From NCBI GenBank assembly GCA_001051155.2, contig JYIP02000003.1, positions 248,001-312,000 on the forward strand: 64,000 nucleotides of DNA, in the 5' to 3' direction. The translations under genes and the position numbers were made by a program. Of this stretch, positions 51,130 to 62,842 are shown piece by piece (position 1 is the stretch's first letter; the number at the start of each line of letters is the position of its first letter). The notes below the pieces were generated by a model. It did no database searches and was not told the origin of the DNA. It worked only from the letters and a program-made list of their open reading frames with translations. Origin of the DNA: Chrysoporthe austroafricana (Eukaryota > Ascomycota > Sordariomycetes > Diaporthales > Cryphonectriaceae).

Positions 51130-52330
51130 CCCCGCCCAACTTGGCATATATATGCCTGGCAATATTACTCTGGGAAAGAGAGTTGGCTTTGAGGTACGCT
51201 GCTTCCTTGCAGCATTGTTAAGCACTTCCAGCTTGAGATCGCTTCATACTGATGTGTACTTCTCTCTGGAGATAGGATTCACCTAAACTGCCGTTTATTC
51301 GTGCAGAGCGCCATCGTCTCCGGAATTGGCTGGCGACAAGCATCCCAATTCAATGGGGCAAGCGCGTGATACGCATCGAACATGATGATAACGGAGTCAC
51401 AGTCTACTTTGAGGACGGTAGTACTGCGAAGTGAGACATCCTAATCGGTGCAGATGGTGCTCATAGTCTCGGTAAGTCATTCCATATCTTCAGAGCGTTT
51501 TCATTTGGCGCATCCGTTCCTGGAAAACATCTAATCTCATTACAACGTGGCTAATCTGGATGATCGAAGTCCGAGAACAACTCCTCCAACGTCCGGCCAG
51601 CGAACTCCTCAAAGTCGTCCCCATTGCCACAATTATAGGTGAGCTGACCTTATCGGGGGAGGCCTTCAAGCGCCAGCTGGCCCTCGGCCACAGCGGTTAC
51701 ATGATCATCCGCCCGGATCTGGGCTTCCTCGCCTTTGTGGGGCTTCACTATGTCTGCCCAGATGGCCTCTCAGGCCGTTATTACTGGAATACCCTACAGG
51801 ATGACCTCACTGTTGCCGATCCCGACCACTGGCTCCAGAAGGCCACCCAGCAGGAGAAGTTGGACCACGTCCTGAATGCGGTCGCTAAATTGCTGCCTCA
51901 CCTTCGCGAAGTCTTCGAGTCGACACCCGCCGAGGGGATCAGGGCCCACACCCATGTCTGGCGCGATCTTGAGCTCGACAACATCCCGGGTATACGTCTG
52001 CCGGCTAGTCGTGTCATCCTAATCGGGGACGCGGCCCACGTCACGACGCCGTTCCGGGGTGAGGGTGGCTATAATGCATTCCTCGACACACTGAAACTGG
52101 GCCAGAAGTTGGGCGAGCTAGAGAAAGGAGCTAAGTTCAAGGACATCGGCGCTGTCCGGGAAATTGTTGCTGAGCACAATGAAGAGATGGTCAAGAGGGG
52201 CGCACAGACGGTGCGGGATTCGAGAAACCTGCACTCGAATGCACAGCGGCTCGGTCCTGACGGGAAGCCGATCATCGTTGAGATGATAGACTTACCAGAT
52301 AGAGAGATAGTGCTTGGGGTTGGGGCATGA
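51130..52330 (+). pseudogene. FAD-dependent monooxygenase, 3' fragment
   Basis: Starts mid-domain with PAQLGIYMPGN. After an intron it reads RAERHRLRNWLATSI and the FAD-binding GADGAHS motif. A TGA at 51432-51434, just before DILIGADGA, breaks the frame. The last exon (from about 51571) is intact and includes the second FAD motif, VILIGDAAHVTTP then FRGEGGYNAFLD. The protein ends at 52330. The Rossmann GxGxxG part is missing here and lies at 62843-63121 on the other strand. Class A flavin monooxygenases of this kind tailor polyketide/NRPS products. Confidence 0.88.
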
Positions 52331-53180
52331 TCATTAGGCTTTTCCTTGCTCGTCAGGCATTGATGACACATTATGTTAAGCGAGGCTATGTCATTCAATC
52401 TTCGATGACAGCTGGTAGCTAGTTAAAACGACGAATTCGAGCCCCGTAGCAGATACTCAGCAGTGCGCTTTCTATAAGCTATGTCAATTACAATCATTTT
52501 GTATAGGAAGAAGTTCATGTATCATCGGGAAGTACTTGGCAAACACTTCTCTGCGCCCCCCCCCCCGGCTTTCCGGAAAGAACACGAGATTCACATAGCT
52601 GACTTTGGACTTCCCTCATCTGGCGATAGATGTATTTGGAAAGTGATTTTTGGTACCATAACTTTGAAAGCCAATTGTATTCAGCTTCAATATACCCTGA
52701 TAGATTCCGGCACGGAGAGGATTGTCCGCACAAAGATTTCCTCGCGGGCACGGACAAGTGCATATGAGGTGCGAACATTTTGCGCTGAGATATCCATAAT
52801 TCACCATGGTAATATGTGTTCCCATTCTACGGCTGGAACTGTCGGCCAGACCTGACTTCTAATACGATATGTAAAGAAGAAACGGTCTCAAAGGCTGCTC
52901 TGGACTGCTGGGCAGAACACAGGTGTACCGTGTACATGGGCAAATGCATGATATAGTCTAACCTGGGTGTTTGAGCTCTCTCTACCAAGATGTAATAGCG
53001 CAAGCTGAGAAGCAAATGTCAATGTCACTCAAGGTTTGTCTCTGAGTGTAGGACAAGGTATATCTTATGGTACGTTGCCTATAATGGGAAGCTATCATGC
53101 GGCTAATATGCCTGACGTGCTAAATGTATGAAAAAATCTCAAACCCGAATGCTACCACTCAACAAGTCTAATAAGCTCGA
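52331..53180. other. Intergenic inside the inversion
   Basis: Between the 3' ends of the FAD monooxygenase fragment and the PKS-NRPS. No gene supported; a C-run (52556-52566) is present. Confidence 0.5.
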
Positions 53181-62100: not shown

Positions 62101-62842
62101 CAAGCTCCAAATTGTGTTCAGATCCCGAGATGGCAACAGGGCAGGAATAGACTGTGAAGTCGGCTGTGATCAGCTTGTCATGACGGGACTTGATTGCTGT
62201 AAGTGTGACTAGAGTCTCGACACCTTGCGTATCTCCATCCTCGAACGTAATAGCCCTTGGAATAGAAAGGTCAAGGAGTTCGATAAGCTCAACCGACTTA
62301 TCGGCTGTGAGGATTCTGCATGCTTCTATGGCCATGGAGACGTAACCTGCGGCTGGAAAAACGGTCTGACCTTGCAGCTGATGGCCTTCTAGCCACCTGA
62401 TTTCAGACGCTTTGAGTACGTTTGACCAACGCATCTCGCAGGCGTTCGAATCTGGGCACGGAGCGCCGAGAAGCTCGTGAGGAGCCTGTTTTCGCTCACG
62501 AGTCTTTCGAGATTTGCGAGACTCGCTCCAGTGAGCCCTTCCATGGTTGAAATGGTAGGATGACAGGCCAACTACGAGCTTGTGAGGACGTGATATACCC
62601 GTCACCGTCTTCTCATAAGACCGCAGATCAACCCCTTTGGTCCCCGCAATGCTCCATACAAAGCCGAGCGCATCTGAGAAGGCCTCGACATCGTCGTTGC
62701 CTCTATTTAATACATCGAAGTACGGGAAGGCCGTTGGTCGAATCTCGGTGATATTTTGTATGGCAGGGCCTTTAAGTGCTGGGTGCGGTCCAATTTCGAG
62801 AGCGAGGTTGATCTGTTCATCGCTTGAAATGGCGTTTTTGAC
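53181..62842 (-). pseudogene. PKS-NRPS, 3' fragment: AT end-DH-cMT-KR-ACP-C-A-T-R, multiply broken
   Basis: From 62842 the frame starts inside the AT (VKNAISSDEQ, ALEIGPHPAL). Domains in order: DH (WLEGHQLQGQTVFPAAGY), C-methyltransferase (LLEIGAGTGGATKS), KR (ILFGLSGQIGQSF, then NPGQANYTAANGYLN), ACP (LGIDSLVAVEVR), condensation (SYHHIIMDGASLN), adenylation (AVLYTSGSTGTPKG; HNSYGPAEIS), thiolation (GGNSLLIVRLQ), and reductase/TD (TLLVTGATGYVARNLF). In-frame TAGs occur at 59996-59998, 59846-59848, 57564-57566 and 56035-56037. The R domain has an internal deletion and frame change near 53620 that removes the YxxxK region. One intron (57992-58050) has a GC donor. An ER motif is not seen, in keeping with the trans-ER remnant. 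It would make an aminoacylated reduced polyketide. Its product cannot be named. Confidence 0.9.

Follow-up and report, generated by a model that had tools for sequence, protein, structure and literature searches.

A 64,000-bp stretch of the Chrysoporthe austroafricana genome (the window; bases 248001-312000 of contig JYIP02000003.1, here C16, which is 5.6 Mb long in an assembly of 48 Mb and 22 contigs) contains a hybrid polyketide synthase-nonribosomal peptide synthetase gene (PKS-NRPS; the synthetase) and a gene for a flavin monooxygenase (FMO, an FAD monooxygenase), both of which are in pieces. Very probably, an end-joined inversion cut these two genes of one PKS-NRPS cluster, as one among about eight lesions of a recent loss of the pathway. 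Four gene pieces are found at 48.4-63.1 kb of the window (synthetase front, +; FMO rear, +; synthetase rear, -; FMO front, -), and comparison with homologues confirms that one inversion of 11,713 bp accounts for both cuts, the synthetase being cut inside its AT domain at 51129|62842 and the FMO gene in codon 76 at 62843|51130. In the proposed explanation, two breaks ~11.7 kb apart would have occurred in two convergent neighbouring genes of this Diaporthales fungus, and end joining would have reinserted the intervening segment in the opposite orientation, using no more than 2 bp of shared sequence and losing zero net bases, so that the flip would have cut the AT domain and codon 76 together. 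The geometry and the exactness of the joints are read from the alignments, while end joining is what we infer. The nearest named proteins to a fragment of the RNA polymerase I subunit RPA2 of this genome are those of Diaporthe sp. (89% identity over 99%) and Discula destructiva (92% over 94%), which makes Diaporthales the most likely order on sequence evidence too.

Junctions of the inversion

The two junctions were compared with homologues by searching the gene pieces separately, and the introns of both genes are presumed from the alignments. From 120 listed homologues of each gene, the 88 synthetases with at least 3600 amino acids and the 35 FMOs with at least 395 amino acids were used for the junction counts. 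Nearly all of the synthetases (87/88) align on both sides of the junction, the remaining one on the left side only, and 84 of the 87 have zero net bases at the joint. Amongst the FMOs, 17 of 35 align at both edges (16 at the 5' edge only and two at neither), all 17 with zero net bases, and the break divides codon 76 (in homologue numbering) into 2+1 bases. Among solved structures, LovB aligns with the front synthetase piece through residue 831 and with the rear piece from 833, the first residue of that piece corresponding to 832. PsoA aligns with the front piece up to 843 and with the rear piece only from residue 854, which pairs with rear-piece residue 10.

The strongest single result for the original order is a synthetase paralogue that the genome carries on a different contig (C21) and that is uninterrupted at 3082791|3082792. 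Here C21:3082693-3082791 corresponds to window 51031-51129 (+) and C21:3082792-3083034 to window 62842-62600 (-), with zero bases between them; the paralogue is 52% identical to the window synthetase in its best segment. The junction coordinates given for both genes in a preliminary description of this DNA agree with the LovB alignment, the homologue counts and the paralogue, and its statement that both reading frames match to the codon with no bases lost is upheld by the 84 synthetase and 17 FMO homologues. The exchange is thus reciprocal at both edges, with few or no bases lost or gained, as in a simple end-joined inversion. An in-frame fusion created by the flip was considered and rejected, since on direct reading, without splicing, the frame of the second gene is not kept across either new joint.

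Linkage of the two genes

The synthetase and the FMO look like neighbours of one metabolite pathway or cluster. Counted by eye over the two homologue lists (120 rows each), 19 organisms are named in both, and in 15 of these the contigs that carry the synthetase and the FMO have the same length, which we take to mean the same contig and hence linkage (Xylaria intraflava, Cryphonectria parasitica, Monosporascus sp. GIB2, Xylariaceae sp. AK1471, Clohesyomyces, Lophiotrema, Lasiosphaeria ovina, Polytolypa, Seiridium cupressi, Wetmoreana, Cladorrhinum, Triangularia verruculosa, Stachybotrys elegans, Xanthoria parietina, and Lojkania). Where gene numbers are given for both genes among the 15, the spacing is small (2 in Monosporascus and in Xanthoria, 3 in Wetmoreana, 7 in Polytolypa). 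Phyllosticta cirsii, also one of the 19, has no contig data.

Edge sequence and repair mechanism

The dinucleotide CT (AG on the other side) is the sole match between the two edges and allows each edge to be placed within 2 bp; a match of at least 2 bp is expected by chance in 15.6% of random joins. Repeats, inverted or direct, were sought at the edges, and none was found to link them: no inverted repeat of at least 14 nt joins the edges, and inverted matches within 60 bp of them reach at most 6 bp, compared with a median of 6 and a 95th percentile of 8 for random pairs. The claim of the preliminary description that only CT is shared and that flanking inverted repeats are absent is therefore borne out, and the lack of long homology between the edges is again as in a simple end-joined inversion. 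Searches of the genome DNA ignore simple repeats and very common words. A long query (50000-63842) returned seven weak rows of 66-83% identity (four from the C21 paralogue and a single row for each of C6, C2, and C12) without matching its own locus, and shorter 1-kb stretches, which do recover their own locus, were relied on instead. Beyond itself, the 1 kb around the left edge has a single 59-bp match at 83%, and the 1 kb around the right edge matches the C21 paralogue at 66% only. Searches with the stretches 45500-48600 and 52300-55300 likewise found no close second copy.

Joints that are balanced and free of repeats are compatible with two breaks and their repair by end joining, the likely mechanism and the one that the preliminary description had read from the joints. 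Inversion by a transposon or between repeats, or a reversible (programmed) switch, would call for an element or inverted repeats at the edges, which neither the edge repeat searches nor the genome searches found; such an origin is hardly credible, even with AT-rich DNA 43 kb away in the window (1-8000), and a switch would meet broken genes in either orientation, given the other stops described below. The AT-rich block itself (GC 0.33-0.37) adjoins DNA of GC 0.42-0.55. Template switching during replication could have used the 2-bp microhomology, but such events usually leave gains or losses, and both joints are balanced to the base, which makes this origin improbable.

Several points weigh against an end-joined inversion of two linked genes. 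Three of the 87 synthetase homologues give a non-zero base count at the junction (two of -6, one of +9), which is likely to reflect natural length variation. A close relative of the FMO was not found next to the C21 paralogue, which therefore tests the synthetase junction alone. Contig sizes differ for the two genes in three of the 19 organisms (Aspergillus sclerotiicarbonarius, Calogaya cf. arnoldii, and A. ochraceoroseus); the gene numbers in C. cf. arnoldii are 2327 apart, and the A. ochraceoroseus proteins are perhaps from two strains. A replication-based mechanism with clean edges would look the same as end joining by sequence alone. Additionally, the evidence comes from one assembly of one strain, so that an assembly error or a polymorphism within the species is possible. 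A mis-join, in which the assembler flipped the segment, nevertheless appears very improbable: mis-assembled inversions are usually located at inverted repeats, and here no inverted repeat links the edges, no close second copy of the 1 kb around either edge was found, and both reciprocal joints are exact. The size of the contig and the small number of contigs also suggest a long-read assembly.

Other lesions and the order of events

Across the two genes about eight lesions are counted, the inversion among them. Apart from the inversion, the synthetase has six (the loss of its first ~66 codons, four nonsense codons, and one frameshift), and the FMO gene has one nonsense codon, the TGA at 51432, at a position occupied by Gly in 35 of 35 homologues. 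The preliminary description mentions neither the missing synthetase 5' end nor the additional stops in both genes. Three of the synthetase stops (51022, 56037, and 59998) fall on a conserved Trp (72/72, 82/82, and 87/88 of the homologues aligned without nearby gaps, respectively), and the fourth (59848) lies in a stretch that is variable in 83 homologues. The frameshift near 53638-53666 is accompanied by ~50 missing bases relative to five of six homologues. Left out of the count were one stop in a variable linker (57566) and a further seven at 49510-50653, which are aligned but lie in sequence of low identity beside presumed introns. Repeat-induced mutation was rejected as the source of the stops, as the inverted segment has a TpA/ApT ratio of 0.64 and a second index of 1.29, values that by the usual cut-offs do not look like repeat-induced mutation.

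Homology of the front synthetase piece starts abruptly near 48437, at homologue residue ~67 and ~660 bp after an open reading frame (ORF) resembling a terpene synthase, and a search of window 45000-49000 gave nothing above chance level for the first 66 residues. We regard 48437 as the edge of a second rearrangement or of a deletion. The earlier proposal that the inversion separates the promoter and 5' part of each gene from its 3' part is partly true: front and rear pieces are indeed apart, but the left synthetase piece has no start. Relocation of the synthetase N-terminus was also considered; among the 30 places listed for this segment, the four on C16 are the other polyketide synthase (PKS) of the window, near C16:282209, and three that are far off. 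This second PKS (34080-41395 of the window, with matches at C16:282209 and C16:284972) lies ~7 kb upstream of the broken synthetase. Just upstream of the synthetase are two ORFs (46550-47773), the second of which matches terpene synthase family 2 and the first of which has no Pfam match.

The five nonsense codons in ~4125 codons (a count from exon limits set by hand on the alignments) correspond to 1.1-1.4% neutral divergence since constraint ended, with a 95% range of 0.4-3.2% over three mutation models. The inversion ends constraint itself, and so should be no older than this estimate, provided that counting stops gives a fair clock; it is probably young. The claim that it broke both genes at once is not shown, since with six other disabling lesions in the synthetase and one in the FMO gene both may already have been dead, and the flip may have come late in an already dying pathway. 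The opposite order, in which the inversion came first and killed the pathway in one step, with the remaining lesions following later, is unlikely. The small nonsense load, which implies that the loss is recent, speaks for it, as does the FMO gene, in which the inversion is one of only two counted lesions. With about eight lesions, the plain prior for any one of them being the first is ~1 in 8 (a prior, not a test), and the synthetase has also lost its 5' end. We are equally doubtful of the fuller version of this idea, that a conservative flip was the founding mutation, silencing two pathway enzymes together recently enough for strains with the ancestral order to persist, and that the other stops are later wear. 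An inversion among the several lesions of a recent pathway loss remains the preferred explanation.

Features of the window and related loci

Table 1. Coordinates (window numbering) of the inverted segment, its edges, and the pieces of the two genes
Feature	Position	Strand	Evidence
Inverted segment, 11,713 bp	51130..62842		Exact match of both reciprocal joints to homologues, and of the synthetase joint to the C21 paralogue
PKS-NRPS 5' piece (KS and most of AT); without first ~66 codons; in-frame TGA 51022	48437..51129	+	tblastn with 6 and with 88 homologues; Pfam KS C-terminal, AT
PKS-NRPS 3' piece (AT end, DH, MT, KR, ACP, C, A, T, R); in-frame TAG 59998, 59848, 56037; frameshift near 53638-53666	53184..62842	-	Pfam, homologue alignment
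FMO 5' piece (start codon, codons 1-75 and 2 bases; one presumed intron)	62843..63121	-	Homologue alignment
FMO 3' piece (remainder of codon 76 to end; presumed introns; in-frame TGA 51432)	51130..52330	+	Homologue alignment
Left edge, 2-bp CT match, break placed within 2 bp	51128..51129		Sequence
Right edge, AG = complement of CT	62843..62844		Sequence

Taken together, the Pfam domains of the ORFs and the homologue alignment give the fungal PKS-NRPS order KS-AT-DH-MT-KR-ACP-C-A-T-R, an array that the inversion splits. Downstream of the window (C16:312251-316257), a 2OG-Fe(II) oxygenase ORF and MFS transporter ORFs have long open frames and are possibly the surviving remainder of the cluster.

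Further relatives of the synthetase are present elsewhere in the genome. At C2:1044720-1047067, a PKS-NRPS relative retains only KS and some of AT (equivalent to homologue residues 3 to ~700), with no further match to three homologues up to C2:1069800. This locus was rejected as a duplicate of the gene pair, the monooxygenase there being 30-37% identical over at least 55 residues (56% over 27 residues with one homologue). The search of the fungus's own genome also found a PKS-NRPS relative with an in-frame TGA at C12:1874237-1877172, where an intron is possible.

Significance and comparison with known systems

The window presents a base-exact, repeat-free inversion in a metabolite cluster whose original order is evident from a paralogue in the same genome and from many homologues, and it provides a clean datum on cluster decay and on break repair in fungi. 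It also carries a warning for annotation, in that gene callers may report four fragments in place of two former genes.

Among the matches listed, the best relatives of the two genes (69% identity for the FMO and 68% for the synthetase) are not named as characterised. The PKS-NRPS and FAD monooxygenase of P. cirsii, which we take to belong to the phyllostictine cluster, are 55% and 57% identical, respectively, to the window pieces. Clusters of the phyllostictine/curvupallide type are among the closest known systems, from which the window differs in that its genes are broken. Phytotoxic activity has been shown by phaeosphaerides and phyllostictines (PMC8403587).

Rearrangements shape secondary-metabolite clusters in Tolypocladium inflatum (PMC6367777), and inversions distinguish the dothistromin mini-clusters of Cladosporium fulvum from those of Dothistroma septosporum (PMC3510045). 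In Aspergillus fumigatus, one cluster has several independent nonsense and frameshift lesions, and a different cluster (cluster 14) is split by a large inversion in one strain, which is not described in the available text as cutting two genes (PMC5711037). No description of one inversion cutting two genes of one cluster was found in the available parts of the literature searched. In chromosome-level assemblies of Fusarium graminearum, 71.3% of inversions contain a gene or have a gene-overlapping breakpoint, and rearrangements are enriched within 1 Mb of chromosome ends (PMC11152077). The window inversion is similar in cutting genes, and its distance to the start of the contig, a point that is not necessarily the end of a chromosome, is ~0.3 Mb. 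Unlike F. graminearum, in which a significant proportion of inversions overlap repeats (PMC11152077), the edges here are repeat-free, and both cut genes are of one likely pathway. The event is of an ordinary, known kind, cleanly documented.
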